A stretch of 64,000 bases of DNA from Streptomyces albogriseolus (lineage in GTDB: Bacteria > Actinomycetota > Actinomycetes > Streptomycetales > Streptomycetaceae). This document shows positions 17,595-45,489 of the stretch, one piece after another (the first letter of the stretch is position 1; every line of letters begins with the position of its first letter). The stretch lies in assembly GCA_014650475.1 (NCBI GenBank), contig BMVA01000002.1, forward strand, positions 372,001 to 436,000, read 5' to 3'. Under the pieces are notes generated by a model. The model was not told the DNA's origin. It saw only the letters and a list, made by a program, of their open reading frames with translations, and ran no database searches. Both the position numbers and the translations under genes were made by a program.

Positions 17595-18731
17595 TCACGT
17601 CCGGTGAGCCGTGCGCCGCCCCGCGTCCACTGCCGCGTACAGGTCGCGCCACGCGGCCGCCAGCCCTTCGACGCTCTCGGCCTCCAGCTTGCGGGCGATC
17701 TCCTCGCCGTCGACGCCGAGGTCCTCCAGTCGTCTCCAGACCTCGAGAGCCGCCCCGTGACGCCCCATCAACGTGTCCCCGCACATGTCGAGCCGACGGG
17801 CGGCCGCCTTCAGGGTGGGCAGGGTCATCAAGGTGATCGTGCCCCAGGTGACGAGCTGCTCGACATAGCGGGTGAGGGACGACGAGGGGTCGGTCACGGT
17901 GGTGGCCGTCCACATCAGCCGTTGCGGATGGGCTCCCGCCGCGGCCATGGCCCGCCAGTCGGCGCCGCCGAACCAGTCGTCGTACATCCGGTAGAAGTGG
18001 CGGGCCCGTGCCACAGCGGCTTCGCCGCGCAGCGCCAGGGCGTCGGGGGTGCCCAGGCCCTCCAGCCGCGCGTCCACCTCGGCGTCCAGGAGGCCCACGG
18101 GCAGGGAGACGACCGAGACCAGCCTGGAGAGCCGCCGCCCGTCGGCCAGCGCGCGCCGGAGGCCCTCCGCATAGGCGTCGAGGGCCTCGCGATAGCGCGA
18201 GGCCGAGAAGACCGCGGTGACATGCACGGGGAAGCCCGCGCCGACGCACTCCCTGATCGCGGCGATCCCCTCCGTGGTGGCCGGCAGCTTGACCATCGCG
18301 TTCGGCCGGTTCACCGCGCGCAGCGCCTGCTCCGCCTCCGCCACGGCCGACTCGACGTCGTGGGCGAGGCGTGGGTCCAGGTCCATCGACACCAGGCCGT
18401 CCAGGCCGCGTGTGGCCTGGTACACCGGGCGGAGTTCGTCGCAGGCCCAGCGGACGTCGTACGCCGCCACCGCACGCACCGCGTCGGCGGCGCAGATGTC
18501 GTCGGAGGCCAGGCCCGCGAGTTGTTCGCGGTAGGCGTCGTCGCTCTCGACCGCCGCCGCGAGCGCGGCCGGGTCGGACGTGGCGCCCCGGACGCCGGTG
18601 CGCGCGATGAGCCGGGTCAGGCATCCGGAGGCAAGGTGACCGCGGGTGAGTCCGTCCAGCCAGGGCGAGACGCCTTCCGCGACCAGTTCGTCCAGCTCCA
18701 GCACGCCCGGTTGCCTCAGCCGGTCCGACAT
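17595..18731 (-). CDS. Transaldolase-family protein with variant active site
   Basis: A 378-residue transaldolase homologue. The Schiff-base Lys is kept in NAMVKLPATTEG, and the flanking strands HVTAVFSASRYREAL and YVEQLVTWGTITLMTLPTLKAA match the family. The N-terminal loop normally TTNP reads ATSDP, so the conserved substrate-binding Asn is Asp. This suggests altered substrate handling. A canonical transaldolase would release erythrose-4-phosphate, the DAHP synthase substrate, which fits the aromatic pathway genes that begin on the other side of the intergenic region. ATG 18731 has AAGGAG upstream. A 48-residue ORF ends 20 bases before it. A housekeeping role is less likely because of divergence and location. 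Confidence 0.82.
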   Translation of the reverse strand: MSDRLRQPGVLELDELVAEGVSPWLDGLTRGHLASGCLTRLIARTGVRGATSDPAALAAAVESDDAYREQLAGLASDDICAADAVRAVAAYDVRWACDELRPVYQATRGLDGLVSMDLDPRLAHDVESAVAEAEQALRAVNRPNAMVKLPATTEGIAAIRECVGAGFPVHVTAVFSASRYREALDAYAEGLRRALADGRRLSRLVSVVSLPVGLLDAEVDARLEGLGTPDALALRGEAAVARARHFYRMYDDWFGGADWRAMAAAGAHPQRLMWTATTVTDPSSSLTRYVEQLVTWGTITLMTLPTLKAAARRLDMCGDTLMGRHGAALEVWRRLEDLGVDGEEIARKLEAESVEGLAAAWRDLYAAVDAGRRTAHRT

Positions 18732-18750
18732 GGCGGGTCGTCACTCCTTG

Positions 18751-18897
18751 CTAGTCCATGGCGAGTTCAAGCGTCGCCGTCAGGTTATTCGCATGCACCG
18801 GTGATGAACTACGGGTGTCCTGCCACATTGGCGCAAAGTGGTTCCGACATCGACTTGATGAAGTAGCGGCTATTTGACGAAGTGCGTCGATCGCCAT
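18751..18897 (-). CDS. Possible 48-residue peptide gene upstream of the transaldolase
   Basis: A 48-codon ORF starting MAIDALRQIAATSSSRC and ending in an amphipathic tail LTATLELAMD. A strong Shine-Dalgarno (AAGGAAGG) lies 4 bases before the ATG, and the stop is 20 bases before the transaldolase start on the same strand, so they look like an operon. It resembles nothing I know. It could be a small structural peptide, a translated leader controlling the transaldolase, or a chance ORF. Codon use is less GC-biased than in the neighbours. Confidence 0.3.
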   Translation of the reverse strand: MAIDALRQIAATSSSRCRNHFAPMWQDTRSSSPVHANNLTATLELAMD

Positions 18898-19623: not shown

Positions 19624-20796
19624 GTGGACGACGCGCTGCTCGACATCAAGGACAAACCGGCCAGGCAGCAGCCCGAGTGGGGTGATGCGGCGCGGGTGCG
19701 GCAGGTCACGGACACCCTGGCCCGGCACCCGGCCCTCGTCGACGCGGCGGACGTCGACACGCTGCGTTCGCTGCTGGCCCGGGTCGCCTCGGGCGAGGCC
19801 CTGGTCGTCCAGTCCGGCGACTGTGCCGAGGACCCCGCCGAGTGCACGACCGGCTATGTCGCCCGGAAGACCGCGGTGCTGGACCTGCTGGCCGGCGCGC
19901 TGAAGATGATCACACACAAGCCGGTGATCCGTGTGGGCCGGATCGCGGGCCAGTTCGGCAAGCCCCGCTCCAGCCCGACCGAAGTGGTCGGCGGCATGGA
20001 ACTGCCGTCCTACCGGGGCCACATGGTCAACGGTCCTGAGCCCGACCCGGAGAGCCGGCGCCCGGAGCCCGGCCGCATGCTGGACTGCTACCAGGCGGCC
20101 CGCGAGATCATGACCCATCTCGGCTGGCGGGACGCCGGACCGCGGCACGCCGTCGAGCCGCCGGTGTGGACCAGCCACGAGGCGCTGATCCTGGACTACG
20201 AACTCCCCATGGTCCGCCGGGACGACCGGGGCCGGCTCGTCCTCACCTCCACGCACTGGCCCTGGATCGGCGAGCGCACCCGTCAGCTCGACGGCGCGCA
20301 CGTCGCCCTGCTGTCCCGGGTCGCCAACCCGGTCGCCTGCAAGATCGGCCCCAAGGTGACGGCCGACGAGCTCCTCGGGCTGTGCGAACGGCTCGACCCC
20401 GACCGGGAGAAGGGCCGCCTGACCCTCATCGCCCGGATGGGAGCGTCCGCGGTCGGCGACCGGCTGCCGGGGCTCGTCGCCGCGGCCCGCGAGGCCGGGC
20501 ACCCGGTGATCTGGCTGACCGACGCCATGCACGGCAACACCGTCGCCCTGCCGGGCGGGCTCAAGACCCGCTACCTGGAGACGATCGAGCGGGAGATCCA
20601 GGAGTTCCAGGAGGCCGTCCGCTCCGAGGGCGGCATCATCGGCGGGCTGCACCTGGAGACCACGCCGGACGACGTCACCGAGTGCGTCCCCAACGACGCC
20701 TGCGTCGAACACGTCGCGGACAAGTACACGACCTACTGCGATCCGCGCCTCAACCCGAGCCAGGCAGTCGCCGTGGCCTCGGCCTGGCTCGGCTGA
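19624..20796 (+). CDS. Class II DAHP synthase (PhzC-like)
   Basis: A 390-residue 3-deoxy-D-arabino-heptulosonate-7-phosphate synthase of the plant-like class II. It condenses phosphoenolpyruvate and erythrose-4-phosphate, the first step of the shikimate pathway. Landmarks are VVQSGDCAEDPAECT, RVGRIAGQFGKPRSSPTE, LPSYRGHMVNG, the metal/substrate segments KIGPKVTADEL and TDAMHGNT, and GGLHLETTPDDVTEC. It is shorter than the housekeeping enzyme (about 450 residues), like PhzC-type enzymes dedicated to secondary metabolism. GTG 19624 is preceded by AAAGGAGAGA. It opens a six-gene rightward operon. Confidence 0.93.
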   Translation: MDDALLDIKDKPARQQPEWGDAARVRQVTDTLARHPALVDAADVDTLRSLLARVASGEALVVQSGDCAEDPAECTTGYVARKTAVLDLLAGALKMITHKPVIRVGRIAGQFGKPRSSPTEVVGGMELPSYRGHMVNGPEPDPESRRPEPGRMLDCYQAAREIMTHLGWRDAGPRHAVEPPVWTSHEALILDYELPMVRRDDRGRLVLTSTHWPWIGERTRQLDGAHVALLSRVANPVACKIGPKVTADELLGLCERLDPDREKGRLTLIARMGASAVGDRLPGLVAAAREAGHPVIWLTDAMHGNTVALPGGLKTRYLETIEREIQEFQEAVRSEGGIIGGLHLETTPDDVTECVPNDACVEHVADKYTTYCDPRLNPSQAVAVASAWLG

Positions 20797-20869: not shown

Positions 20870-21640
20870 ATGGACGGAAAGGTCGCACTCGTCACCGGGG
20901 CGGCGGGCGGCATCGGCGAGGCGGTGGCCCGCGCCCTCGGCGCACGCGGCGCGGTGGTGGGAGCCGTGGACCGCGACGCCGACCGGCTGCGGCAGGTGGT
21001 GGACAAACTGCGCGCGGACGGCCTGGAGGCGCAGGCCCTGCCCGCCGACGTCACCAGCGCCGCCGACGTCGACGCCGTGGTCCGCGCGGCCGAGGAGCGC
21101 CTCGGCCCGCTGGAGTACCTGGTCAACGGGGCCGGCGTGCTGCGTCTGGGCACCGTGCGCAACCTCACCGACGAGGACTGGACGACAACGTTCGCCGTCA
21201 ACGCCACCGGCGTCTTCCTGATGTCACGGGCCGTCGTCAACCGCATGCTGCCGCGTCGGCGCGGCGCGATCGTCACCGTCGCGTCCAACGCCGCCGCCAC
21301 CCCGCGGGTGCAGATGGCCGCCTACGCCGCGTCCAAGGCGGCGGCGACCATGTTCACCAAGAGCCTGGGCCTGGAGGTCGCCCGGGACGGCATCCGCTGC
21401 AACGTGGTGGCGCCGGGCTCCACCAGCACCCCGATGCTCACCTCCATGTGGCACGACGACTCCGGCCCGACGCACACGATCGAGGGGCGGCTGGACGCGT
21501 TCCGGGTCGGCATCCCGCTGGGCAAGGTGGCCCGCCCCTCGGACGTCGCCGACGCCGTCGCCTTCCTGCTGTCCGACGAGGCCTCCCACATCACGCTGCA
21601 CGAACTCACCGTCGACGGCGGCGCCGCGCTCGGCGCCTGA
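20870..21640 (+). CDS. EntA-like short-chain dehydrogenase, probable DHHA dehydrogenase
   Basis: A 256-residue short-chain dehydrogenase: cofactor loop TGAAGGIG, NGAG, catalytic Ser in VASNAAATP and YAASK for Tyr/Lys. The C-terminal half follows EntA/DhbA (2,3-dihydro-2,3-dihydroxybenzoate dehydrogenase), notably APGSTSTPMLTSMW and GRLDAFRVGIPLGKVARP. Given a PhzE/PhzD pair directly downstream, the likely substrate is trans-2,3-dihydro-3-hydroxyanthranilate, oxidised with NAD+ to 3-hydroxyanthranilate, as described for benzoxazole-type antibiotic clusters. Oxidation of 2,3-dihydro-2,3-dihydroxybenzoate is the alternative. GAGGAGG precedes the ATG. Confidence 0.88.
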   Translation: MDGKVALVTGAAGGIGEAVARALGARGAVVGAVDRDADRLRQVVDKLRADGLEAQALPADVTSAADVDAVVRAAEERLGPLEYLVNGAGVLRLGTVRNLTDEDWTTTFAVNATGVFLMSRAVVNRMLPRRRGAIVTVASNAAATPRVQMAAYAASKAAATMFTKSLGLEVARDGIRCNVVAPGSTSTPMLTSMWHDDSGPTHTIEGRLDAFRVGIPLGKVARPSDVADAVAFLLSDEASHITLHELTVDGGAALGA

Positions 21641-21682
21641 GCCCCGTCCCCCACCGACCTGAGGCGACCAGGAGAGCAACTC

Positions 21683-22306
21683 ATGGCAGGCATACCCGAG
21701 ATCACCCCCTACCCGATGCCGACGGCCGGCGACCTGCCCGGCAACGTGGCCCAGTGGTCCGTCGACCCGGACCGCGCCGTCCTGCTGGTGCACGACATGC
21801 AGCGCTACTTCCTGCGGCCCCTGCCCGACGGCCTGCGGGAGGAACTCGTGGACAACGCCCGGCAGGTGCGCGAGCACTGCGCGGGGCTCGGCATGCCGGT
21901 GGCGTACACGGCGCAGCCCGGCGGCATGACCGACGAACAGCGGGGCCTGCTGAAGGACTTCTGGGGCCCGGGCATGCGCACCGCCCCCGCCGACCGGCAG
22001 GTCGTCGACGAACTGGCCCCGGCCCCCGGCGACTGGCAGCTCACCAAGTGGCGTTACAGCGCCTTCTTCCGCTCCGACCTGCTGGAGCGGATGCGCGCCG
22101 CCGGCCGGGACCAGCTGGTGCTGTGCGGCGTGTACGCCCACGTCGGCGTGCTGATGACCGCCGTCGAGGCGTTCACCCACGACATCCAGCCGTTCCTGGT
22201 GGCCGACGCCGTGGCCGACTTCTCCGAGCACCACCACCGGCTGGCCCTGGAGTACGCGGCGCAGCGCTGCGCCGTCGTCGTCACCACCAAGGAGGTCCTG
22301 GCATGA
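21683..22306 (+). CDS. Isochorismatase-family hydrolase, PhzD-like
   Basis: A 207-residue isochorismatase-fold hydrolase. The N-terminal [13 protein letters not shown] and [13 protein letters not shown] with the catalytic Asp, the Lys in LTKWRYSAF, and the [18 protein letters not shown] block all match PhzD/EntB-type enzymes. There is no aryl carrier domain, so it is PhzD-like rather than EntB-like. It should cleave the pyruvate enol ether of 2-amino-2-deoxyisochorismate to give trans-2,3-dihydro-3-hydroxyanthranilate. Its TGA overlaps the ATG of the PhzE-like gene (ATGA). Confidence 0.92.
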
Positions 22307-24246
22307 CCGGCACCACGAGCGGCGACCTGCTCGGCCGGATCCTGGGCGACCGGCCGCCGGCCGCGTACGCCCTGCTGCACCGCCCCGAGACGACGGGTCC
22401 GGGCGTGCTGGACGTCGTCGTCGGCGAGACGGCCGAGCCGCGCACCCTCGCCGAACTGCCCCTGCCCGACGCCGCGGAGACGTCCGGCGGTCCCCGCCAC
22501 GAGGTCCTGGCCCTCGTGCCCTACCGGCAGATCGCCGAGCGCGGATTCGACTGCCCCGACGACGGCACGCCGCTGCTGGCCATGACCGTCACCGCTCAGG
22601 CCACCGTGCCCGTCGCCGAGGCGCTGACCCGGATCCCCGACCTGCCCGTGGAGCTGTCCGGCGGCCGCTTCGACGTCCCGGACGAGGAGTACGCCGCCAC
22701 CGTCCGCCGGGTCGTCAAGGACGAGATCGGCACCGGGGAGGGCGCCAACTTCGTCATCAAGCGCACCTACACCGCCGACATCACCGGCTACACCCCGCGG
22801 CACGCGCTGGCGGTGTTCCGGCGCCTGCTGCAACGCGAGAGCGGCGCCTACTGGACGTTCCTGGTGCACACCGGCTCGCGCACGCTCGTCGGCGCCACTC
22901 CCGAGCGGCACATCAGCCTGCGCGCGGGCCGGGCGGTGATGAACCCGATCAGCGGCACCTACCGCTACCCGTCCACCGGCCCGGCGCTGCCGGAGGTGCT
23001 CGACTTCCTCGCCGACCGCAAGGAGGCCGACGAGCTGTACATGGTCGTGGACGAGGAACTGAAGATGATGGCCCGGATCTGCGAGGAGGGCGGCCGGGTG
23101 GTCGGGCCGTACCTCAAGGAGATGGCGCGCCTCGCCCACACCGAGTACTTCATCGAGGGGCACAGCACGCGCGACCCGCGCGACATCCTGCGCGAGACGC
23201 TCTTCGCCCCGACCGTCACCGGCAGCCCGCTGGAGAACGCCTGCCGGGTCATCAACCGGTACGAACCCGAGGGGCGCGGCTACTACAGCGGGGTCGTCGC
23301 GCTGATCGGCCGGGACGAGCACGGCGGGCGGGCCCTGGACTCCTCCATCCTGATCCGTACCGCCGACATCGACGCGACCGGCCGGCTGCGGATCGGCGTC
23401 GGCGCCACGCTCGTCCGGCACTCCGACCCGGAGAGCGAGGTCGCCGAGACCGCGGCGAAGGCGGCGGGTCTGCTCTCGGCCTTCGAAAGCAACGGGCCGG
23501 CCCGCTTCGCGGACCATCCGCAGGTCCGGTCGGCGCTGGAGCAGCGCAACGCCACCCTCGCCGGCTTCTGGCTGGCCGGTCGCGGCTCCGGGGCGCGGCC
23601 CGGTCCTGAGCTGGACGGACGCCGCGTGCTGGTCGTGGACGCCGAGGACACGTTCACCTCCATGCTCGACCACCAACTGCGGTCCCTGGGACTGCGGGTG
23701 ACGGTCCGCCGCTTCGACGAGCCCTACTCCACGGACGGCTACGACCTCGTGGTGATGGGGCCCGGCCCGGGCGATCCGCGCGACGTCGAACACCCGAAGA
23801 TCGCCCACCTGCGTGCCACGGTACGCACCCTGCTCGACGAGCGGCGTCCGTTCCTCGCCGTCTGCCTCAGCCACCAGACGCTGTGCACGCTGCTCGGTTT
23901 CCCGCTGGTGCGCCGGGCGGTGCCCAACCAGGGCGTGCAGCGGGAGATCGACCTGTTCGGGGCCCGGGAACGGGTCGGGTTCTACAACACGTTCGCCGCC
24001 CGCGCCGAGGAGGACAAGGCCGAGTGCGAGGGGGTGGGCGTGGTGGAGGTCAGCCGCGATGCCGACACCGGTGAGGTGCACGCGCTGCGCGGCCCGCACT
24101 TCGCGTCGATGCAGTTCCACCCCGAGTCGGTGCTCACCCAGGACGGCGTGCGCATCGTCGGCGACCTCCTCAGGGAGGTCCTCCCCCACACGACGGGAAA
24201 GGAGCGCGGCACCGTTGAGCAGGTTGCGCTGGCTGACCGCGGGTGA
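22303..24246 (+). CDS. PhzE-like 2-amino-2-deoxyisochorismate (ADIC) synthase
   Basis: A 647-residue fusion of a chorismate-binding domain (about residues 115-430, with [36 protein letters not shown] and [15 protein letters not shown]) and a C-terminal class I glutamine amidotransferase (about 445-625). The amidotransferase nucleophile lies in [10 protein letters not shown], where PhzE-type enzymes have Ser and anthranilate synthases normally Gly, and the His/Glu pair is in MQFHPESVL. It converts chorismate and glutamine to ADIC without pyruvate elimination. The next enzyme being PhzD-like supports ADIC rather than anthranilate as product. Starts in an ATGA overlap with the isochorismatase gene. 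Confidence 0.92.
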
Positions 24247-25399
24247 GTCCCACGGCCCGGCACTCGTGGCGACGCTGGAGGGCCTCCCCGCCGGCGTGCC
24301 GGTCACCACGGACATGGTCGCGGACCATCTCGCGAGGCGGCGGCTGGGCCACGGTCGCGGTGCCCGGATGACGTTCGAACGCGACGAGGTCACCTTCCTC
24401 GGCGGCGTCCGGCACGGCCTCACGCTCGGCTCCCCGGTCGCGGTCATGGTGGGCAACACCGAGTGGCCCAAGTGGGAGCAGGTCATGGCGGCCGACCCGG
24501 TCGACCCCGACATCCTTCGGGGGCTGGCACGCAACGCCCCGCTGACCCGCCCGCGTCCCGGCCACGCCGACCTCGCCGGCATGCAGAAGTACGGCTTCGA
24601 CGAGGCCCGCCCCGTCCTGGAGCGCGCCTCGGCACGGGAGACGGCCGCCCGGGTGGCACTCGGCGCGGTGGCCCGCTCGTACCTGAGGGGGACCACCGGA
24701 GTCGAGATCGTCAGCCATGTCGTGGAGCTGGCCTCGGCCAAGGCGCCCGAGGGCGTGTACCCGACGCCGGCGGACGTGGAGCGGCTGGACGCGGATCCCG
24801 TGCGCTGTCTGGACGCGGACGCGTCGAAGGCGATGGTCGCCGAGATCGACCAAGCCCACAAGGACGGCGACACCCTCGGGGGTGTGGTGGAGATCCTGGC
24901 CTACGGCGTACCCGTCGGCCTCGGCTCGCACGTGCACTGGGACCGCAGGCTCGACGCCCGGCTCGCCGGCGCGTTGATGGGCATCCAGGCCGTCAAGGGC
25001 GTCGAGGTGGGAGACGGTTTCGCGTTGGCGCGGGTGCCGGGTTCCGAGGCGCACGACGAGATCCTCCCGACCGGGGAGGGCGTCGGACGGGCCTCGGGCC
25101 GCTCCGGCGGCACGGAGGGCGGTCTGTCCACCGGTGAACTGCTGCGGGTGCGGGCCGCGATGAAGCCGATCGCGACCGTGCCCCGGGCGCTGCGGACGGT
25201 GGACGTCTCCACGGGCGAGGCCGCCCAGGCGCACCACCAGCGCTCGGACGTGTGCGCGGTCCCGGCGGCCGGAATCGTGGCCGAGGCGATGGTGGCGCTG
25301 GTGCTGGCGGACGCGGTGGCGGAGAAGTTCGGCGGCGACAGCGTCGCCGAGACCCGCCGCAACGTCGCCTCCTACCTCGACCACCTCGTCGTCCGATGA
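24215..25399 (+). CDS. aroC: Chorismate synthase (cluster copy)
   Basis: A 394-residue chorismate synthase, converting EPSP to chorismate with reduced flavin. Signatures are [15 protein letters not shown] at the N-terminus, [17 protein letters not shown], the [13 protein letters not shown] block, [10 protein letters not shown], and [11 protein letters not shown] with the later [10 protein letters not shown] region. TTG 24215 is chosen because it gives the family start ([14 protein letters not shown]) and AAAGGAG lies 11 bases upstream. It overlaps the end of the PhzE-like gene by 32 bases. Since every streptomycete needs a housekeeping aroC, usually beside aroB/aroK, this copy inside a dedicated operon probably boosts chorismate supply. 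Confidence 0.92.
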
Positions 25400-25917
25400 G
25401 CGGGCCGCTGGTCGTGCTGGTCGGCCCGATGGGCGTGGGCAAGTCCACCGTCGGGCGCCTGCTGGCCGAGCGGCTCGGCGTCGCCTACCGGGACACCGAC
25501 GAGGACATCGTCGCCGAACAGGGCCGGACCATCGCCGAGATCTTCGCCGACGACGGCGAGTGCGCCTTCCGGGCGATCGAGGCGCGGGCGGTGGCCCGGG
25601 CCCTGGCCGGGCACGACGGTGTGCTCGCGCTGGGCGGCGGGGCGGTCCTCGATCCGCGGACCCGGGCCCTGCTGTCCGGGCGGCCGGTGGTCTTCCTCGA
25701 CGCCGACGCCGGCGAGGCGGTGCGGCGGATCGGCCGGGACCCCGGCCGGCCGCTGCTGGCGGGTGATCCGCACCGGCGGTGGCGTGCGCTGGCCGCGGCA
25801 CGCCGTCCGCTCTACACGGAGGTCGCCCGGGCGGTCGTCGACACCGGCGGGCGCACCCCGGAGGGGGTCGTGGAGGCCGTGCTGGCGGCGCTGGCCCCGC
25901 GGGAGGCGAAGGCCTGA
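25396..25917 (+). CDS. aroK: Shikimate kinase (cluster copy)
   Basis: A 173-residue shikimate kinase: Walker [12 protein letters not shown], shikimate-binding DTDEDI and GGGAVLD, and the lid region [10 protein letters not shown]. It phosphorylates shikimate at the 3-hydroxyl with ATP. The ATG overlaps the chorismate synthase stop by 4 bases (ATGA). It is the last gene of the six-gene operon and is followed by a perfect terminator. No aroA, aroB, aroD or aroE copies are in the window, so the operon complements rather than replaces the primary pathway. Confidence 0.93.
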
Positions 25918-26835: not shown

Positions 26836-26936
26836 GAGCGTCCTTCCGCCGGTGCGAGAGGGGGGTCGGATCGCACGGCGGTGCGGCGCGCGGCCCGTCC
26901 GGGTGCCGCGCGCCGCACGCCGCGCCGGTGGGAGTG

Positions 26937-30409: not shown

Positions 30410-30531
30410 CGGGTGAACCTCATTTCCCGCCTCGGCGTTGTCGGGGGCGGCGCGGCGCGCACCATGGGGCCACAGTGATCGTCGCCCCGGTGCCGGGCCG
30501 GCCGCCAACCTCCGGTCACTACTCCGTCAAG

Positions 30532-33182: not shown

Positions 33183-33190
33183 GGCGGGCC

Positions 33191-36814: not shown

Positions 36815-38383
36815 CTACGCGTCCGTCCGTTCCGCCTTGAGCAGCCGGGCCAGCTCCAGCCGCTTGATCTTGGTGGTGGCGGTCTGCGGCAGGTCGTCGA
36901 GCTTCCACTGCACGGGCTCCGCCATCGCGGGCAGACCGGCCACCGCGGACTTCCAGGCCGCCAGGTCGAGCGGCTTGTCGTCGCGGGTGCACACCACGGG
37001 CAGGGGCCTGCCGTCCTCGTCCGGGACGATGATGACCTCGACGAGCTCGGGTATCCGGGCGAAGAGGGTGTCCTCGATCTCCAGGGTGCTGTCGACGCCC
37101 TCGATCTCGTCGACCTCCCGGTCGAGCAGGTGCAGGCAGCCCCACTTGGTGCGGTAGCCCAGGTCGCCCATGCGCCACCACTCGCCGTCGGCCTGCTTCT
37201 CCCAGCGCTCGTGCTCGCCGAGGTAGGTGACGATCCGTCCGTCGGACCGCACCTCGATGTAGCCGGGGTTGGACTTGGTGGGCCGCTTGCCGTCCCGGCT
37301 GACCACCCGGACGCCCGTCATGCCGGGGAACGGGGAGCCCACGCAGCGGCCGTCGGCGTCCGCGCCGCGCTTCTTGGAGTAGGTGCGCCCGGCGATCGGG
37401 CCGACCTCGCTCTGCCCGTACATCTGCACGAACTGCGGCGACTCGCGTCGTGACGCCTTGAGCATCAGGTGCACGGTGCGCGGGTGGATGGCGTCGAAGG
37501 TGCTGCTGAAGTACTTCACGTTCGCCAGCGGCCGGCGCGGGTCGTCGACCAGCACCTCCCAGCGCAGGAACGTGTTGGGGTGCGCCTCTATCAGGCCCGG
37601 CGGGGCCTGGCGGAACACCTCGGCCACGACCTCCGGGTCGTCGTCCCGGAGGATGATCATGGGGTGTCCCTGGAGGATCGTGATGGGCATCGCGGTGAAC
37701 ATCCGCGAGTGCACGAACGACACGTGGATGGCCACCGGTTCGCTGCGGCCCACCAGGGAGGCCACCGTGCCCTGCGGGCGGTAACGGGCCTGGAAGGTGC
37801 GGCCGGTGTGCACCGCCAGCTTGGGCGTTCCGGTGGTGCCGGAGGTGTGGGTGACCAGCGTCGGGTGGTCCGGGGGCATGGTCACCGGCGCGACCCGGGC
37901 CGAGCCGGCCAGCGAGGCGAACGTGACGGCCTCGTCGTGGCTGCCGGAGGCCAGGAGCACCCGCCGGGCCAGCCCGAAGATCTCGGCGGGCAGGTGGTGG
38001 TCCAGCTTGTCCTGGTCGGTCACCAGGTAGGGCCGGTCCACGCGGCGCACCAACTCGCACACGGTGGCGCCGTCGAGCTTCGGGGACAGCAGGACCGGGA
38101 CGGCGCCGATCCTGGCCGTGGAGCAGGCCAGGAGCGTGATGTCGAACCCGTCGGTCTTGTGGACGACCACGCGCTCACCGGGCCGGACGCCGGCCGCCCA
38201 CAGCCGGGAGGCCAGGTCGTCGACGAGGTCGGCGACCTCCGTGAGCGTCATGCGGCGCCCGCGTTCCGGAGCGACGTCGAGATCATGGTCGAGAATCACG
38301 GGATTCGCCGGATGCCGGGCCGCGGCCCGGTCGAAGAGCGTGCCCAGCCGAATTCCCTTGTTTCCGATGCGCTGGAGAAACAT
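36815..38383 (-). CDS. AMP-dependent synthetase/ligase
   Basis: A 522-residue adenylate-forming enzyme of the ANL superfamily. The ATP loop is THTSGTTGTPK at 178-188, the Tyr motif is QMYGQSEVGP, the ribose-binding Asp is in GDLGYRTKWGCLHLLDREVDEI, and the C-terminal catalytic Lys lies in TATTKIKRLEL. No carrier protein or NRPS module is nearby. It should adenylate a carboxylic acid, or act on a small oxyanion. In cremeomycin and related clusters, fatty-acyl-CoA-ligase-like homologues (CreM type) activate nitrite with ATP for diazotisation of aromatic amines. With a nitrate reductase operon next door, that role is worth considering, but an ordinary acyl- or aryl-CoA ligase fits the motifs equally well. 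Confidence 0.88.
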   Translation of the reverse strand: MFLQRIGNKGIRLGTLFDRAAARHPANPVILDHDLDVAPERGRRMTLTEVADLVDDLASRLWAAGVRPGERVVVHKTDGFDITLLACSTARIGAVPVLLSPKLDGATVCELVRRVDRPYLVTDQDKLDHHLPAEIFGLARRVLLASGSHDEAVTFASLAGSARVAPVTMPPDHPTLVTHTSGTTGTPKLAVHTGRTFQARYRPQGTVASLVGRSEPVAIHVSFVHSRMFTAMPITILQGHPMIILRDDDPEVVAEVFRQAPPGLIEAHPNTFLRWEVLVDDPRRPLANVKYFSSTFDAIHPRTVHLMLKASRRESPQFVQMYGQSEVGPIAGRTYSKKRGADADGRCVGSPFPGMTGVRVVSRDGKRPTKSNPGYIEVRSDGRIVTYLGEHERWEKQADGEWWRMGDLGYRTKWGCLHLLDREVDEIEGVDSTLEIEDTLFARIPELVEVIIVPDEDGRPLPVVCTRDDKPLDLAAWKSAVAGLPAMAEPVQWKLDDLPQTATTKIKRLELARLLKAERTDA

Positions 38384-38471: not shown

Positions 38472-39014
38472 TCACCGCTTTTCGATGACGTCCTTGATGC
38501 GCTTCAGCGTCGCGTCGAGGTCCTGCTCGAGCTTGGCGGTCCAGTCGGCCACGAAGCGCTTGCGGTCGTCCTCGTCGAGGTCGGCGACGATCTTGTGGAT
38601 GCCGGCGGTGGCCCGGCCCATGCGGAAGTGGTGGGTGAGCACGCACCCGTCCTCGGCGGGCGCCATGTCGAAGCCCCAGATGCTCTCCTGGTCCTCGCGG
38701 GCGTGGGTGAGCATCATCCACTGGAAGGTGCGGCCGGGCTCGGCGGCGGTGATGCGGCACTCGGTGTGCCAGACGCCGCGCACCAGGGGCGCCCAGGCGA
38801 CGACGTCCTCGCTGCGGAGGTTCTCGCCGCGGAAGACGGCGCCGACGGTGGACGGTTCGCCGGAGACCCACGTGCCGCCCCGGCATTCGGGGCTCCATTC
38901 GGCACTGCGCGGCAGATCGCTGACGACGGAGTAGACCTCGAGCGGGGTCGCGGAAATGTGAATGTCGGCCTTGAGCTCGAAGAGCGGCGAGGTGTCGATG
39001 ATTGACTGAGTCAT
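38472..39014 (-). CDS. SRPBCC-family protein
   Basis: A 180-residue START/Bet v1-like (SRPBCC) protein: LFELKADIHISATPLEVYSVVSDLPRSAEWSPEC at the N-terminus and a long C-terminal helix (WTAKLEQDLDATLKRIKDVIEKR). Members bind hydrophobic ligands and act as aromatases/cyclases, chaperones or simple binders. It lies between the dehydrogenase and the ligase in the leftward group, with gaps of 104 and 88 bases. No PKS is present in the window, so polyketide cyclisation is unlikely. A role in binding an aromatic intermediate is conceivable. Confidence 0.82.
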   Translation of the reverse strand: MTQSIIDTSPLFELKADIHISATPLEVYSVVSDLPRSAEWSPECRGGTWVSGEPSTVGAVFRGENLRSEDVVAWAPLVRGVWHTECRITAAEPGRTFQWMMLTHAREDQESIWGFDMAPAEDGCVLTHHFRMGRATAGIHKIVADLDEDDRKRFVADWTAKLEQDLDATLKRIKDVIEKR

Positions 39015-39118: not shown

Positions 39119-40105
39119 TCAGGCCCCGTCGGCGACGCTCAGCACGAGTTTTCCGTGCACCTTGCCCTCCTCCAGCCGGCGGTGGGCCTCGGCGGCGTCG
39201 CTCAGGTGCAGCCGCTCGATCGCCCGGGGCCTCAGACGGCCGTCGGCGACCAGCCGGTTGACGGCGCTGGCGGCCTCGGCGAGCTCCTCGGCGGTGGCGT
39301 GCGAGATGGCGAAGCCGTGGATCGAGCGGTCCCTCAGGTACAGCGGCCCCACCGGCAGCACCGGCCGGGAGCGCAGTCCGGCGAGCAGCACGATCCGCCC
39401 CCGCCCGGCGAGCAGGTCCACCGCGGTCTCCAGGTCGTTGGTGCCGGCGGCGTCGAGGTAGAGGTCGGCGCCCGCCGGGGCGGCGGCGCGGATGCGCCCG
39501 GGCACGTCGGGGTCCCGGTAGTCGACGACGTGGTCGGCGCCGAGTCCGCGGCAGTACCCGGCGTCCCGCGCGGAGGCGACGGCCACGACCCGGGCGCCCG
39601 CCGCGGCGGCCATCACCACCAGGGCGCTCCCGACGTTCCCGCCCGCGCCGACCACGACGACGGTCTCGCCGGAGCGGAGCCGCCCGTGGGTGAACAGGCC
39701 GAGATAGGCGGTCGCGGCCGGATGGGCCAGCGCGACGGTCTCGAACGGGTCGGCGCCCTCCGGCAGGCGGTAGAGCCGGTCGACGGGCACCACCACCCGC
39801 TCGGCGGCGGCCCCCTGACGGCCGTCGTGGCCGAGGCTGTTGCACCACACCCGGTCGCCGGGCCGGAACCGGTGGACTCCGGTGCCGACCGCGGCGACGG
39901 TGCCGGTGAGGTCCCGGCCTATGACGAAGGGGAAGGTGAGCGGGGTGCGCCAGGCGCCCGAGCGCACGAAGGTGTCGACGTGGTTGACCGAGACGGCCGT
40001 GACGTCCACCAGGACGTCGGTCGGCCCCGGTTCCGGCGTGGGCTGATCACCGTAACGGATGACGTCCGGAGATCCGAGCTGTTCAATGTAGGCAGCACGC
40101 ATCAT
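39119..40105 (-). CDS. NAD(P)H:quinone oxidoreductase-like medium-chain dehydrogenase
   Basis: A 328-residue medium-chain dehydrogenase/reductase of the quinone reductase subgroup. N-terminal MRAAYIEQLGSPDVIRYGD, GroES-like NHVDTFVRSGAW and GRDLTGTVAAVG, and the Rossmann loop VVGAGGNVGSALVVMAAAAGA are seen. The zinc-ligand cysteines of true alcohol dehydrogenases are absent. It may reduce a quinone, quinonoid or enone. Two adjacent ATGs (40105, 40102) are possible starts, with no good Shine-Dalgarno. It follows the LuxR regulator on the same strand. Confidence 0.88.
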   Translation of the reverse strand: MMRAAYIEQLGSPDVIRYGDQPTPEPGPTDVLVDVTAVSVNHVDTFVRSGAWRTPLTFPFVIGRDLTGTVAAVGTGVHRFRPGDRVWCNSLGHDGRQGAAAERVVVPVDRLYRLPEGADPFETVALAHPAATAYLGLFTHGRLRSGETVVVVGAGGNVGSALVVMAAAAGARVVAVASARDAGYCRGLGADHVVDYRDPDVPGRIRAAAPAGADLYLDAAGTNDLETAVDLLAGRGRIVLLAGLRSRPVLPVGPLYLRDRSIHGFAISHATAEELAEAASAVNRLVADGRLRPRAIERLHLSDAAEAHRRLEEGKVHGKLVLSVADGA

Positions 40106-40206
40106 GGTCACGGATTCTGGCAAAGAGGACCCGGCCTCGTCCGCGAGCGGCCCGGACGCCGTCGCGGATCTGTCAGATCGGAACCATCTCTGTCAGATCC
40201 GCCCCT

Positions 40207-42837
40207 TCAGACCAGGTTGAGACGGGCCAGTTCCCGCCGGGAGCCGACGCCCAGCTTGGGATAGGCCTTGTACAGATGGTGCTCGACGGTCCTGCGGCTG
40301 AGGAACAGCTGCGCGGCGATCTCCCGGCTGCTGTTGCCGTCCGCCGCCAGCCGGACCACCTGGAGCTCCTGCGGGGTCAGCCGGTCGAGGACGTTCTCCG
40401 CGGTGGCCTTGGCGCTCGTCGTCGCGTCACCCGCCGCCCGCAGCTCCGCACGCGCGCGTTCCGCCCAGGGCACGGCGCGCAGCCCTTCGAAGTCCTCCAG
40501 GGCGGACCGGAGCGTGTCACGGGCCTCGCTGCGGCGCCGGGCCCTGCGCAGCCACTCCCCGTACAGCAGCGCGGTACGGGCCCGCTCGAAGGGCCGCCGG
40601 CCCTGTCCGTGCAGCCGGACCGCCTCCCGGTAGTCCTCCTCGCGCCCGTCGACCAGCGCCCGGCACCGGTGGGCCACCGCCAGCGCCCACGGCTGCCGGC
40701 CGGCCCGCGCCCAGGCCTCGAAGGCGCGCATCGGCCGCTCGGCCCGCCCGGACTGCCCGAGCCGTACCGCGGCCTCCACCTGATCGGCGACGGTGGCCAT
40801 GGCCATCGCCATGTGGCGCTGCGGCCCCGGACCGGCGGCGGTCTCCAGCCGGCCGAGGGCCGCCTCGTAGTCGCCTCGCGCCAGTTCCAGCAGGCTCAGG
40901 GCGCTCTCGCCGGCCACCCGGCCGACGTCGGGGACGTCCCGCACGAGGTCGCGGCAGCGCCGCTCGTCGCCCTCGATCGCCGCGATCCGGGCGGGAACGC
41001 CGCCCAGCCAGGCGACGCGCTCGCGCAGCCCGGTGTCGCGGGCGATCTCCACGGCCTCGGCCACCGACGCCTCGGCGTCCCGGTGGGCCCCGGCCAGCAC
41101 CTGGCGTTCCGCCAGCAGGTGCAGGGCCTGGGGCAGGGCCCCGATGAGGCCCTGCGCGCGGCAGCGGGCCACCTCGGCCGCGGCCAGTTCCATGGCCGCG
41201 GCGTCGTCGCCGAGCAGGATCGCGCTGTGCAGGGCGCGCGTGCGCGCCGCGTCCGAGCCGTCCTGGCCGGCGGCGACGGCGCGCTCCAGCAGGGGCAGTC
41301 CGCGGGCGTAGTCGTCGTCGACGAGGTGGGCCATGCCCTCCACCATCGGGTCGGCCTCCCCGAGGGACGCCAGCCGCTCGGCGGCCTCCCGCACGGAGTC
41401 CGCGTCGCCGGCGAACCAGCCGTACGTGGCGCCGGTGCGGAGGATGGCGGGGCCGAGGCCGGGGCCGGCCGCGTGGGTCCGCAGCAGCAGGCGGGCGGCC
41501 TCCCGCCGCTCCCCCGACTCGAACATCACGGCGGCCCGTACGGGGGCGAGCCGGGCCAGGTCCTCCGGTTCGGGACTGGACCGCTCGGCCTGCTCGGCCA
41601 GGTCCCGGGCCTGGCCGGCGTGCCCGGCGTTCAGCGCGCAGGTCGCGGCGTCGGTGAGCCGGCGGACCTGGGCGCGGCGGTCGGGGGTGAGCCGGGCGGC
41701 CTGCTGGTGCAGGAGCGAGGCGGCGGCGTAGGCGCTGCGGTCGGCGGCCCGCTCGGCGGCGGCGACCAGTTCGGAGGCGACCTCGTCGTCCGGTGAGGTC
41801 GTGGCCAGCGGCAGATGGCGGGCCCGGCAGTCGGGGTCGTCCGCGGCGTCGGCCAGCGCCTGGTGGACGGCGATCCGCCGGGCCAGTACGGCTCCCTGGT
41901 AGGCGGCGGTCCCGATCAGCGGGTGGCGGAACACGACGGTGCTCTCGGTCACCTGGATCAGGCCCGCCCGCTCCGCGTCCTCCAGGTCCTCCAGACCCAC
42001 GCCGAGCGTGCGGGCCGCCTTCATCTGCAGCGGCAGGTCGCCCCGCCCCTCGGCCGCGGCGAACAGCAGCGCCAGCCGCGTCTTCTCGGGGAGCGCGGCG
42101 ATCTGGGTGCGGTACGACGACAGCACCCGGTCGGCGACGGTCACGGGCGTGAAGCTGCCGGGGTCGTCACGGCGGGCGGCGCCGAACTCGATGAGCGCCA
42201 GCGGGTTCCCGGCGGACTCGGCGATGACCTGGTCCCGCAGGGCGGGCGGCAGTCCCAGGTCGGCGAGGAGACTCACCGCGTCGCCGGTGTCCAGCCGGGA
42301 GGGGCGCAGTTCGGTGAGCCCGGGGGCGGCGAACCCCTCGTCCCGGGTGGCGAACACCATGGCCACCTGCTCGGCGGCGAGCCGGCGGGCGGCGAAGAGG
42401 AGCGCGTCGGACGTGGCCTGATCCAGCCACTGGGCGTCGTCCACCAGGCACAGCAGCGGCCCCTGCTCGGCCAGGTCCGCCAGCAGCGTGAGCACGGCGA
42501 GACCGGTCAGGAACCTGTCCCGCGTCGGGGGGCGCGTCGCCCCGAGGACCGCCCGCAGGGCGTCCGCCTGGGGTTCGGGTAACCCGTCCAGCCGGTCCTG
42601 CACCGGCCACAGCAGCTGCACCAGCCCGCCGAAGGCCAGGTCAGCCTCAGGCTCGACCCCGGTGACCCGCAGGACCCGCATGCCCGACGCCGACGCCGAC
42701 TGCGCCGTCCGGTCGAGCAGGGCCGTCTTCCCGATGCCCGCCTCACCGCGCAGGACCAGGGCACCGCTGCGTCCCTCGCGGGCCCCGGCGGTCAGTTCGT
42801 CGAGCGCCGCGAGCTCGGTGGACCTGCCGTACAGCAC
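40207..42837 (-). CDS. LAL-type LuxR family transcriptional regulator
   Basis: An 876-residue large ATP-binding regulator of the LuxR family. The N-terminal P-loop is LRGEAGIGKTALLD, Walker B is LLCLVDDAQWLD, followed by a long helical TPR-like region, and the C-terminal LuxR HTH is LTPQELQVVRLAADGNSSREIAAQLFLSRRTVEHHLYKAYPKLGV. LAL proteins are typical pathway-specific activators of actinomycete gene clusters. It is the first gene of the leftward series and divergent from the old yellow enzyme gene, so it is the best candidate regulator of the cluster. An imperfect palindrome lies in the shared promoter region. Confidence 0.92.
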   Translation of the reverse strand: MLYGRSTELAALDELTAGAREGRSGALVLRGEAGIGKTALLDRTAQSASASGMRVLRVTGVEPEADLAFGGLVQLLWPVQDRLDGLPEPQADALRAVLGATRPPTRDRFLTGLAVLTLLADLAEQGPLLCLVDDAQWLDQATSDALLFAARRLAAEQVAMVFATRDEGFAAPGLTELRPSRLDTGDAVSLLADLGLPPALRDQVIAESAGNPLALIEFGAARRDDPGSFTPVTVADRVLSSYRTQIAALPEKTRLALLFAAAEGRGDLPLQMKAARTLGVGLEDLEDAERAGLIQVTESTVVFRHPLIGTAAYQGAVLARRIAVHQALADAADDPDCRARHLPLATTSPDDEVASELVAAAERAADRSAYAAASLLHQQAARLTPDRRAQVRRLTDAATCALNAGHAGQARDLAEQAERSSPEPEDLARLAPVRAAVMFESGERREAARLLLRTHAAGPGLGPAILRTGATYGWFAGDADSVREAAERLASLGEADPMVEGMAHLVDDDYARGLPLLERAVAAGQDGSDAARTRALHSAILLGDDAAAMELAAAEVARCRAQGLIGALPQALHLLAERQVLAGAHRDAEASVAEAVEIARDTGLRERVAWLGGVPARIAAIEGDERRCRDLVRDVPDVGRVAGESALSLLELARGDYEAALGRLETAAGPGPQRHMAMAMATVADQVEAAVRLGQSGRAERPMRAFEAWARAGRQPWALAVAHRCRALVDGREEDYREAVRLHGQGRRPFERARTALLYGEWLRRARRRSEARDTLRSALEDFEGLRAVPWAERARAELRAAGDATTSAKATAENVLDRLTPQELQVVRLAADGNSSREIAAQLFLSRRTVEHHLYKAYPKLGVGSRRELARLNLV

Positions 42838-42898
42838 GTAGGTGCCCCCACTCCCGTGATGCGGCCCACCGGTAGGCGAGCCGTGCCGAGATACGTAT

Positions 42899-42925
42899 CC
42901 GGTTTCAGAAATATTACTGATTCGG
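42899..42925. promoter_or_regulatory. AT-rich imperfect palindrome in the divergent LuxR/OYE promoter region
   Basis: The 145-base divergent region contains an unusually AT-rich patch. Within 42899-42925, CCGGTTTCAG and CTGATTCGG form a rough inverted repeat around AAATATTA, with a perfect TCAG/CTGA core at 42905-42908 and 42917-42920. It is a plausible regulator site or promoter. Confidence 0.35.
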
Positions 42926-42982
42926 CCTGACCTCCCCCCTTCCTACGGTGTGGAACAAGCCGGTTCCCCGATGGAGGAGATC

Positions 42983-44056
42983 GTGAGTCACTTCTTCGAA
43001 CCGCTGCCCCTGGGCAAGCTGACGCTGCCCAACCGGCTCGTCATGGCGCCGATGACGCGCAGCCGGGCCAAGGGCGGCGTACAGACCCCGCTGGCGGCCG
43101 AGTACTACGGACAGCGCGCCGGAGCGGGCCTCATCATCACCGAGGGCACGCAGCCCTGTGTGATCGGGCAGGGTTACATCGACACACCGGGCGTGCACAC
43201 GCCCGAGCAGGTGGAGGCATGGCGTCGGGTGACCGACGCGGTGCACGAGCGGCAGGGCCGGATCTTCGTGCAGATCATGCACTCCGGCCGGATCGGGCAC
43301 CCCAGCCTCTACCCCGACGGCGCACTGCCGCTGGCCCCCTCGGCGGTGGCCTCGGGCGGCCGGATGTACACGCCGGAGGGCATGCTGGACCACCCCACGC
43401 CCAAGGCCATGGACCTGGAGGACATCGCCCGGGCGGTGGAGGACCACATCGCGGCCGCCAAGTACGCGATGGAGGCCGGGTTCGACGGTGTGGAGCTGCA
43501 CGGAGCCAACGGCTACCTGATCCACCAGTTCCTCGCCGACAACACCAACCTGCGCACCGACGCCTACGGCGGCAGCGTCGACAACCGCATCCGCTTCGCC
43601 GTCGAGGTCGCCCAGGCGGTCAGCGACGCGATCGGCCCGGAGCGGGTCGGCATCCGCCTCTCCCCCGCCAACACCACCAACGGCATCGAGGAGAGCGACT
43701 CCGCCGCGCTGTACGAGGCCCTGATCCGCGCCCTGGCGCCGCTCAGCCTCGCCTACGTCCACCTGATGGAGTTCGGCGGCCGTGACATCACGAAGCTGAT
43801 CCGGCGCGAGTGGCCGGGCGTCCTGATCCTCAACCCGCACGCCACGGGCGAGGAGGCCGCGGTGACGCCCGAGGCCGCCGAGGCGGTCCTGGCGGAGGGC
43901 CTGTGCGACGCGGTGAGCATCGGCTCGCTGTGGCTCGCCAACCCCGACCTGCCCGCGCGGATCAAGGCCGGCGGCCCCTACAACACGCCCGACCCGGAGA
44001 CCTTCTACGGAGGCGACCACCGGGGCTACACCGACTACCCGACGCTGGACGGCTGA
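42983..44056 (+). CDS. Old yellow enzyme family alkene reductase
   Basis: A 357-residue FMN-dependent ene-reductase of the OYE/NemA family. Features are NRLVMAPMTRSRA, the active-site region FDGVELHGANGYLIHQFL, the Tyr-containing TDAYGGSVDNRIRF and the C-terminal FMN phosphate loop. OYEs reduce activated C=C bonds and nitro compounds. GTG 42983 is chosen since GGAGGAG sits at 42973-42979. ATG 42971 and upstream codons are in frame but would swallow the ribosome site. It forms a rightward pair with the MFS exporter and is divergent from the LuxR regulator. Confidence 0.92.
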   Translation: MSHFFEPLPLGKLTLPNRLVMAPMTRSRAKGGVQTPLAAEYYGQRAGAGLIITEGTQPCVIGQGYIDTPGVHTPEQVEAWRRVTDAVHERQGRIFVQIMHSGRIGHPSLYPDGALPLAPSAVASGGRMYTPEGMLDHPTPKAMDLEDIARAVEDHIAAAKYAMEAGFDGVELHGANGYLIHQFLADNTNLRTDAYGGSVDNRIRFAVEVAQAVSDAIGPERVGIRLSPANTTNGIEESDSAALYEALIRALAPLSLAYVHLMEFGGRDITKLIRREWPGVLILNPHATGEEAAVTPEAAEAVLAEGLCDAVSIGSLWLANPDLPARIKAGGPYNTPDPETFYGGDHRGYTDYPTLDG

Positions 44057-44235
44057 TCCCCCGGGCAGGCGGCAGCGGGGCTCCCGGTCGGCGCCCGGCC
44101 CGGCCCGCCCCGCCCCGCTCGCCTCCTGCCCCGATCCCCGACTCCCTGGCCCGGCCGGCGCCTTCTCCCCCGAAGGGCTGCACGCCGGACCGGGCCAGGG
44201 TGGTCCAGCGACAACCGACCGCTCAGGGAGCACCG

Positions 44236-45489
44236 ATGAGCAACTCACTCGCCGAGTCCGGCGCCCAGGGTCCCGCCGCGCCGGGCAGGAAACCTCACGC
44301 AACCGACACCCGCGGCCCGTTCCACGGACCCGCGGCCCTCTGGCTGGCCCTGATGGCCGGCCCCCTGTCCTTCGGTATCGCGGGCCCGGCCCTGGTCCTG
44401 GACGACGCCGCGCGGGACCTCGACGTCTCCACCGGCGCCGTCACCTGGACGGTGACCGCGTTCGGCTGGGGCATAGCCGTCGGGACGCCGCTGCTGGCCG
44501 GGCTGCTCGACCGCCGGGGCGCCCGGACCGCCCTCACCACGTGCGGTCTGCTCGTCCTGCTGGGGGCGGGCCTGGTGGCCGGCGTCCCCGTACTGCCGGT
44601 GCTCGTCCTGGGCACCGCCCTGATGGGCCTCGGCACGGCCGGCCTCACGGCGACGGCCATGAGCCTGGCCGGCTCGCCCCGCGCCATGGGACTGGTCACC
44701 GCCTCGCTCGCCGTGGTGGGTTCGACGGCCCCGCTGGCCGGTTCCCTCGTCAACGACCTGCTGTCCTGGCAGGCCACCCTCGCGCTGCCCGTGCTGAGCG
44801 CCGTGGCCGTGCCGTTCGCCGTGGCCCGGTGCGCGCACGGCGCCCCGGTCACCCGGGAGCCGTTCGACCCGCTGGGCGCGGTGCTGCTGACCGCGCTGGT
44901 CACCGCGCTGGTGTTCGTGCCCCACCAGCCCCTGGCCGCCGGGGTCTGCTCCGTCCTCGCCGCGGGGCTGCTCGCGGCCCAGGTGCGCGCACGGCCGCGG
45001 GGTTTCGTCCCCGCCGTCCTGCTCCGCAACCCGGGCTTCCTGGTCGCGGCCGGTCTCGCGCTGTGCCTGGCGGTGGTCAACTTCGGCATGATGTACGCGA
45101 TTCCGGAGCGGCTGGAGGACCACACGTCGTGGTCCACCAGTGAGATCGGCGTCGCCATGGTGTGGCCGCTGCTGCTGGGCGGCGCCCTGTCCTGGTTCGT
45201 CGTGGCGGTCTCGGCGGCACGGGCGGGACGCCGGGTCGTGATCACCGCGCTGGTGGGTCTGGCCCTCGCGGGAGCGGTGCTGGCGGCCGTCGGCACCTCC
45301 CCCGCGGTCCTGCTGGCCGCTCAGGCCCTGACGTCGATCGCGGCCGCCTCGGGCCAGGGCGCGTTCGCGGTGCACGCCACCTCGGCCGTCCCCGACGCCG
45401 AACGCCCCCCGGCCATCGGCCTGTTCAACCTCGCGTATCTCCTCGGTGCCGCCTTCGGCCCCGCCATCGTCTCGCTCCTGTCGCTCTGA
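44236..45489 (+). CDS. MFS transporter, probable drug or product exporter
   Basis: A 417-residue major facilitator protein with about 12 membrane segments and a short cytoplasmic N-terminus. The motif-A-like loop is GTPLLAGLLDRRGARTALTTCG. The organisation resembles Bcr/CflA or arabinose-efflux-like drug exporters. AGGGAG precedes ATG 44236. It follows the old yellow enzyme gene by 179 bases in which I see nothing, and is closed by a strong terminator. Located at the cluster edge, it may export the product or confer resistance. Confidence 0.88.
   Translation: MSNSLAESGAQGPAAPGRKPHATDTRGPFHGPAALWLALMAGPLSFGIAGPALVLDDAARDLDVSTGAVTWTVTAFGWGIAVGTPLLAGLLDRRGARTALTTCGLLVLLGAGLVAGVPVLPVLVLGTALMGLGTAGLTATAMSLAGSPRAMGLVTASLAVVGSTAPLAGSLVNDLLSWQATLALPVLSAVAVPFAVARCAHGAPVTREPFDPLGAVLLTALVTALVFVPHQPLAAGVCSVLAAGLLAAQVRARPRGFVPAVLLRNPGFLVAAGLALCLAVVNFGMMYAIPERLEDHTSWSTSEIGVAMVWPLLLGGALSWFVVAVSAARAGRRVVITALVGLALAGAVLAAVGTSPAVLLAAQALTSIAAASGQGAFAVHATSAVPDAERPPAIGLFNLAYLLGAAFGPAIVSLLSL

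Follow-up and report, generated by a model that had tools for sequence, protein, structure and literature searches.

The gene cluster closest to the one described here is that for penzonemycin (pzm) in Streptomyces sp. SCSIO 40020, the pathway of which is itself a bioinformatic proposal (PMC9323291). That report cites PhzE, PhzD and an EntA-type dehydrogenase as a known route to 3-hydroxyanthranilate (3-HAA), for example in calcimycin and limazepine, and gives 48% identity to CreM for the AMP ligase Pzm18, by neighbours and size the counterpart of the ligase treated below. In penzonemycin A, the hydrazone nitrogen is on C-4, the hydroxyl on C-3 and the amine, which is acylated, on C-2, and the source of the C-4 nitrogen is left as an unknown transamination (PMC9323291). 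Among ava-type clusters, 72 of 134 are described as lacking avaE and avaD, the nitrite source there being stated as open (PMC10777205). Here, we analyse 64,000 nucleotides of the Streptomyces albogriseolus genome (8.07 Mb in 66 contigs; contig C2, positions 372001–436000), below called the window, in which genes for 3-HAA formation adjoin an AMP-dependent ligase and a set of nitrate-reductase (nas) genes. Judging from sequence comparisons, we consider it probable (about 0.8) that this is a penzonemycin-kin cluster in which a cassette turning nitrate into nitrite replaces the aspartate route of creE and creD (creED) and feeds a CreM-like diazotase acting on a 3-HAA-derived amine.

Profile searches of the window's proteins found the genes named in the initial annotation, roughly where it had placed them (gene starts are our choice). 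The core of the locus is a single leftward strand that reads quinone oxidoreductase, SRPBCC protein, AMP ligase, NarK, NasA, two flavoproteins, esterase, AsnB and arylamine N-acyltransferase (NAT). The ligase, a candidate CreM-like diazotase of 522 amino acids (aa) (36815–38383, minus strand like every gene of this run; PF00501, 129 bits), is followed by a NarK-like MFS transporter (35277–36590; PF07690), a NasA-type assimilatory nitrate reductase (33191–35284; PF00384, PF01568 and PF04879), an FAD/NAD reductase with a BFD [2Fe-2S] domain that resembles the electron carrier NasC (31791–33194; PF07992 and PF04324), and the NADH-flavin half of NirB without its siroheme nitrite-reducing half (30532–31797; positions 1–392 of 794 in the TIGR02374 NirB model). 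With the chosen starts, narK, nasA, fad2 and fad1 overlap by 4 to 8 bases. Neither creE nor creD, the nitrite genes of a pzm-type cluster, has a match within the window, and CreD, to which the genome-wide search was confined, is absent from the whole genome (best model score 53 bits against a cut-off of 650).

Ligase homologues, sought in 392 same-genus genomes and a collection of named genomes, form a clade at 65–99% identity, the closest named relative being Streptomyces werraensis JCM 4860 at 99%. The window's genes, together with creE and creD, were mapped onto the ligase neighbourhoods, giving 52 ligase rows, 45 of them with at least 8.5 kb on each side (G and L numbers are our handles for genomes and loci). 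Ten of the 24 named loci were excluded from the 52 rows, as duplicates of genomes already sampled (L045, L047, L048 and L049), as short or cut (L040, L043, L059, L060 and L062) or as frameshifted (L058); L061 and G356, which are the same cluster, were both retained but form a single entry in the non-redundant set of 37 close-ligase loci, obtained from the 45 by collapsing near-copies. The second cluster copy of G108, at the other chromosome end, was excluded as well; in that genome, the two copies of ligase and nasA, one pair close to each chromosome end (C1:105454 and 11220811), score the same, as though they lay in a terminal inverted repeat.

The 52 rows hold creED only in 20 cases, both creED and nas in 12 and nas only in 13; no source was found in the remaining 7, three of which (G289C53, G289C78 and G331lig) come from a short contig or from close to the end of one. 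The nas module stands beside the close ligase in 25 rows, from Streptomyces and one Micromonospora, the locus of the latter (L050) having nas upstream of the ligase. All 12 loci with both sources read lig-creE-creD-narK-nasA-fad2-fad1, the nas genes coming directly after creD; in the window, which like its relatives is nas only, narK comes immediately after the ligase. In one relative, both the curated CreD model (734 bits, cut-off 650) and a match with the CreD structure 5xny identify the creD homologue as a nitrosuccinate lyase. In two nas-only genomes, a decayed creD is left between lig and narK. That of G069 is still an open frame but reduced to 267 residues, and the stretch that we take to be its catalytic loop differs by eye from intact copies; that of G009 is a fragment of the C-terminal part, interrupted by a stop. 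On the ligase tree, the nas-only state requires four changes, two of them forced by the starred branches, in a count that omits the 7 rows without an assigned nitrite source.

Gene content outside the nitrite source points the same way. Locus G005 has the ligase trio (adh-SRPBCC-lig), phzC-entA-phzD-phzE, est-asnB-NAT and OYE-MFS-LAL as the same blocks as the window, reordered, with creED and no nas; tal, aroC and aroK were not mapped there, and by gene content it is nearly the window's cluster with its nitrite supply exchanged. Esterase and AsnB occur together in 12 ligase rows, 11 of them nas only and from three lineages, the twelfth being G005. The best reading of these comparisons is that nas genes displaced the aspartate route (CreE/CreD) found in related clusters, presumably in that direction. 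The initial annotation had united 3-HAA formation and nitrite formation in one cluster, a view that nas genes standing always alone in relatives would have refuted. The search for co-occurrence across genomes upholds the union: nas recurs beside the ligase and swaps with or adjoins creE/creD. Of the 45 close-ligase loci with both flanks, 28 have phzE. Submodules are shuffled among the clusters of the relatives and yet stay in company, and since they recur, rearranged, in many genomes, the grouping of genes in the window is beyond chance.

The nas genes themselves differ from those of ordinary assimilation. NasA has the molybdopterin domains and, conserved without exception in the 64 rows, five cysteines (14, 17, 21, 47 and 139) that we take to be the [4Fe-4S] and Mo ligands. 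Cluster NasA is 63–68% identical to housekeeping NasA, and a tree of the protein (omitting G250 and L062, in which nasA is in broken pieces) splits 27 housekeeping from 37 cluster-type sequences at 100/99; 26 of the latter come with ligase or creED, 4 are alanosine-like and 7 are other. A siroheme NIR domain was detected at 8 housekeeping nas loci, and at all 8 it is fused to the NirB homologue, which is 835–880 aa long, whereas the cluster-type flavoprotein ends at 367–423 aa without NIR in 38 of 38 rows and forms one clade at 100/100. The flavoproteins of housekeeping G027 and G202 group with full-length NirB, with no NIR in the stretch examined; within the examined flank, NIR was seen in 8 of 27 housekeeping NasA rows versus 0 of 37 cluster-type rows, and other housekeeping NIR may lie farther away. 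The operon of the window likewise holds no siroheme nitrite reductase. The genome carries both kinds of NasA, the second at C2:610868 with a full NirB about 9 kb away, and its only NIR_SIR matches lie outside the window, at C2:621452 and C4:232523–233698.

Because this NirB kept the NADH-flavin half and lost the siroheme half, the operon should stop at nitrite: NarK would import nitrate and NasA reduce it, with electrons from NADH reaching NasA through the NasC-like flavoprotein and the truncated NirB. We somewhat favour the wider view that NarK, NasA, NasC and a NirB cut before its siroheme half make up a specialised nitrite-supply cassette, derived once from an assimilation operon by losing the nitrite-consuming domain and exchanged among clusters that form N–N bonds as an alternative to CreE/CreD (in 3-HAA diazo and alanosine-like clusters, and with one or more further CreM-like ligases).

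Several cluster-type nas loci lie away from the close ligase. The one in G215 stands beside a ligase of 53% identity, and six further loci have no explained context, among them L147, L148 and L149 (G047, G105 and G184), with nasA and both flavoproteins and no narK, NIR, ligase or creED within 20 kb; two of these three genomes have an upstream protein of 756–758 aa in common. Four loci combine cluster-type nas with the half-NirB in an alanosine-like setting: L152 (G130), L153 (G286), L150 (G106) and L151 (G023). Scans found PALP, ornithine-cyclodeaminase-like, acyl-CoA dehydrogenase and adenylation enzymes in G130 and PALP with an adenylation enzyme in G286, a set resembling the alanosine biosynthesis described in PMC11705231; G106 and G023 have several other protein families of G130 in common, a likeness judged against G130 rather than by scans of their own.

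On the other strand, and converging on the leftward run, lies the set for 3-HAA: in rightward order, a class-II 3-deoxy-D-arabino-heptulosonate 7-phosphate (DAHP) synthase like PhzC (19624–20796; PF01474, 430 bits), a DhbA/EntA-type dehydrogenase for the last step to 3-HAA (20870–21640; TIGR04316, 350 bits, cut-off 300), the isochorismatase PhzD (21683–22306; PDB 1nf9, E 5.7e-107 over residues 1–206 of 207), the 2-amino-2-deoxyisochorismate (ADIC) synthase PhzE with chorismate-binding and GATase domains (22303–24246), a chorismate synthase (24224–25399; PF01264, 382 bits) and a shikimate kinase (25396–25917; PF01202, 146 bits), the last two presumably extra copies. The best PDB match of PhzE, over residues 6–625, is 3r74, which we take to be PhzE itself, at 756 bits versus 89 bits for the second-best chain. 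PhzE, PhzD, the dehydrogenase and the DAHP synthase, together as in a pzm-type cluster, would make 3-HAA, assisted by the chorismate synthase, the shikimate kinase and a transaldolase (17595–18731; PF00923, 154 bits) that lies upstream on the minus strand and may supply erythrose 4-phosphate. Transaldolase homologues near the cluster were seen in G239, G356, G219 and G303, that is, in 5 of the 52 rows with the window included. The same contig encodes a second chorismate-binding enzyme (G000:C2:203598–204374, locus L005), scoring 128 bits against 145 for PhzE. Elsewhere, ligases of 49–50% identity (L188, L189, L190, L197, L198 and alike) adjoin a chorismate-binding enzyme 27–32% identical to PhzE; by sequence, these loci are a further, little explored type of aromatic cluster.

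The resulting aromatic amine would be the substrate of the AMP ligase, which by activating nitrite onto it would create the diazo group; we infer that the ligase is a diazotase and nitrate the origin of the diazo nitrogen. Its near-constant partners are the SRPBCC protein (38472–39014, minus strand; 180 aa; PF10604), present in 44 of the 45 close-ligase loci with both flanks, and the quinone oxidoreductase of the MDR family (39119–40123, minus strand; 334 aa; PF00107 and PF08240), present in 40. The SRPBCC structure model (mean predicted local distance difference test score, pLDDT, 90.5) has TcmN aromatase/cyclase-like folds among its best matches, which places the protein in that predicted fold and no further. 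Two AMP ligases per cluster occur in G173, G303, G219, G009, G023, G259 and other genomes; in the six named, the second one, 51–55% identical, lies beside phzE.

The ligase could instead be an aryl-CoA or aryl-AMP ligase acting on 3-HAA, nitrite reacting non-enzymatically or through another protein. General acyl-CoA ligase models score highest for the window's protein, no CreM is among its 14 PDB matches, and 19 of 20 sampled ligases at 44–54% identity (8.5 kb flank, one with just 7.6 kb on one side) have no nitrite source nearby. The close clade, however, is tied to nitrite genes: creE/creD, nas or both lie within 8.5 kb in 41 of the 45 loci with both flanks, and in the non-redundant set in 33 of 37, versus 1 of 20 among the distant ligases (Fisher's exact test, 2.5e-10, uncorrected for kinship); the counts are the same with unequal flanks of 25 kb for close and about 9 kb for distant ligases. 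In several two-ligase clusters, moreover, it is the distant ligase that adjoins phzE, and with the likeness of Pzm18 to CreM added, we consider an aryl-CoA or aryl-AMP ligase unlikely.

NAT (25978–26838, minus strand; 286 aa; PF00797, 201 bits; PDB 3d9w, E 6e-54) shows a Cys (RGGYCYE), a His (SHT) and an Asp (ADPG), presumably the catalytic triad; beside it lie an AsnB-type glutamine amidotransferase with an N-terminal MCG (26937–28790, minus strand; TIGR01536, 504 bits, cut-off 267) and a type-B carboxylesterase (28844–30415, minus strand; PF00135, 273 bits). The three would tailor the product, AsnB by amidating the carboxylate or a related acid. If the penzonemycin pattern holds, NAT would acylate the 2-amine of 3-HAA and C-4 would receive the diazo group, the product suggested by this analogy being an N-acylated ortho-quinone diazide with the diazo nitrogen on that carbon. 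The initial annotation had suggested that a diazo group may form on the 3-HAA amine itself, or a benzotriazinone if the acid is amidated first, and this we now disfavour, because the N–N bond of penzonemycin sits at C-4 and its amine is acylated.

A nitrogen at C-4 has to come from somewhere, and nitrite might be used twice, first for C-4 nitrosation ortho to the hydroxyl, followed by reduction by the quinone oxidoreductase or an Old Yellow Enzyme (OYE), and then for diazotisation with a second nitrite. The unexplained transamination of the penzonemycin proposal would leave room for this; the window holds NAT, an OYE and the conserved oxidoreductase, and the double nitrite supply of 12 clusters would fit a high demand. 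The scheme is speculative, however: none of the cluster genes is assigned as a C-nitrosating enzyme, the C-4 nitrogen could instead be introduced by an amidotransferase or a transaminase, and we regard a double use of nitrite as improbable.

Doubt may also fall on NasA, which could reduce a substrate other than nitrate, such as a nitro or N-oxide intermediate, nitrite being drawn from the medium or from the housekeeping NasA. Its closest solved structures by sequence are formate dehydrogenases as well as periplasmic nitrate reductases, it scores under the cut-off of model NF047855, 12 clusters hold creED besides, and 6 of 11 cluster-type nas loci without close ligase or creED have no NarK match in the stretch examined. 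All 25 ligase rows with nas nevertheless have a NarK-like transporter, the enzyme stays close to housekeeping NasA in identity, and nas stands in for creED in otherwise alike clusters; we consider a different substrate very unlikely. The least probable alternative, an ordinary nitrate-assimilation operon that by chance lies beside an aromatic-acid cluster, has in its favour that NasA, the MFS protein and both flavoproteins are of assimilation type and that NasA is found at E 1e-150 or better in 328 of 384 same-genus genomes searched, but it is rejected on the separate NasA clade, the missing siroheme domain and the recurrence beside the same ligase, the genome having another NasA near a full NirB and neither lig nor creD lying near any of the 27 housekeeping NasA (some stretches being short on one side).

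Several observations weigh against the preferred reading, a nitrate-fed diazotase on a 3-HAA-derived amine. The ligase is tied to CreM through published identities, sizes and neighbours rather than through an alignment; against the curated diazotase model NF058622 (AvaA6), it scores 84 bits with a cut-off of 975. NasA reaches 737 bits against NF047855, below the cut-off of 1100, a threshold that may not suit the genus. Of the 45 loci with both flanks around a close ligase, four have neither creED nor nas, and 17 have no phzE: in 7 of the 17 (window-type loci or L061) the sequence stops short of where phzE would lie, L054 has a phzE piece at its edge, and the nine others are real absences or unclassified. 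The gap between lig and narK in the window holds no creD or creE relic. Neither nitrite route simply excludes the other, because 12 clusters keep both. Finally, a CreD-like gene elsewhere in the genome (378–823 bits) could supply nitrite in 8 of the 11 nas-only genomes searched (the genome of L046, also nas only, lay outside this search): 3 are over the cut-off, 5 are weaker (378–585 bits), and 3 genomes have none (G000, G356 and that of L057).

The remaining genes of the locus are a LAL (LuxR) regulator (40207–42837, minus strand; PF13191 and PF00196), the OYE-type flavin reductase (42950–44056, plus strand; PF00724) and an MFS exporter (44245–45489, plus strand; PF07690). OYE and LAL occur together in 10 of the 52 rows: G356, the creED-type G005 and eight that are of the same kind as the window. 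In some relatives, OYE and MFS, an addition to the genes first named, are found with the set. Farther right, a transposase-like protein of the DDE_5 type without the first Asp pair (47730–48935, minus strand; PF13546, 130 bits) is the sole full match in its own genome. Full-size homologues (at least 330 aa aligned) lie at 24 other loci of the ligase clade and at G215n, versus 0 of 20 distant-ligase and 0 of 27 housekeeping nas loci; those near the ligase are 36–81% identical, stop-free in 26 of 26 rows, and in all 26 cluster proteins the Asp pair is missing, while three transposase loci of G009 keep it (7 of the 16 loci examined there have the motif pattern, 3 with the Asp pair). The structure model is too poor for use (pLDDT 50.5). 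By its sequence, the protein is likely a member of the cluster; it looks like a domesticated transposase and is perhaps a regulator, and pzm10 is likewise called a transposase (PMC9323291). Beyond these genes lie conservon-like genes on the left (ATP_bind_1 and HATPase; 13686–17221) and a Rieske/VanA-type oxygenase on the right (50218–51591).

For this one family of clusters, gene order gives an answer to the question of nitrite: nas beside, and then instead of, creE/creD. An operon of this sort, in which nitrate reduction ends at nitrite, would be of use as a component in producing diazo compounds and as a query for finding further clusters. The initial annotation knew of no characterised cluster with this combination, which stands for the nas version, for which our literature search found no paper joining nitrate reductase with aromatic diazotisation clusters and related remarks solely on alanosine, but not for the creED version, which is in print as pzm (PMC9323291).

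Judged by its genes, the diazotase cluster is of a known kind and the nitrate reductase a new nitrite source for such clusters. The pzm cluster resembles the window in PhzE, PhzD, EntA-type dehydrogenase, DAHP synthase, an N-acetyltransferase and a transposase-like gene, and, by size and family rather than by alignment, in its AMP ligase, SRPBCC protein (Pzm19) and quinone reductase (Pzm13), of 527, 180 and 334 aa versus 522, 180 and 334 aa; by contrast, pzm draws nitrite from aspartate via CreD/CreE, encodes an acetolactate synthase together with an F420 oxidoreductase and has an N-acetyltransferase of 171 aa versus 286 aa for NAT, and nas genes, AsnB, esterase and OYE are absent from its published table (PMC9323291). 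Cremeomycin formation, with CreE, CreD and CreM, also joins nitrite and an AMP ligase into a diazo group, but on a precursor derived from 3-amino-4-hydroxybenzoate (3,4-AHBA) and with nitrite from aspartate (PMC11705231, PMC11429834). The AvaA6 and CmaA6 clusters of avenalumic and p-coumaric acid share an ATP-dependent diazotase fed by nitrite and differ in using 3,4-AHBA and a type II polyketide synthase (PMC10777205); the AvaA6 model fails on the window's ligase. The housekeeping nas operons of Streptomyces have the same protein families, and in G298, G138 and G088 the order narK-nasA-fad2-nirB, but with a full-length NirB including the siroheme half and a NasA of the other clade. By analogy, the precedent for a nitrate-fed N–N supply is found in L-alanosine clusters, where nitrate and nitrite reductases are reported to provide the nitrogen in place of a missing aspartate route, although the product there is an amino-acid diazeniumdiolate, reportedly formed through nitric oxide, with no aromatic diazotase (Wang and Ryan 2023).

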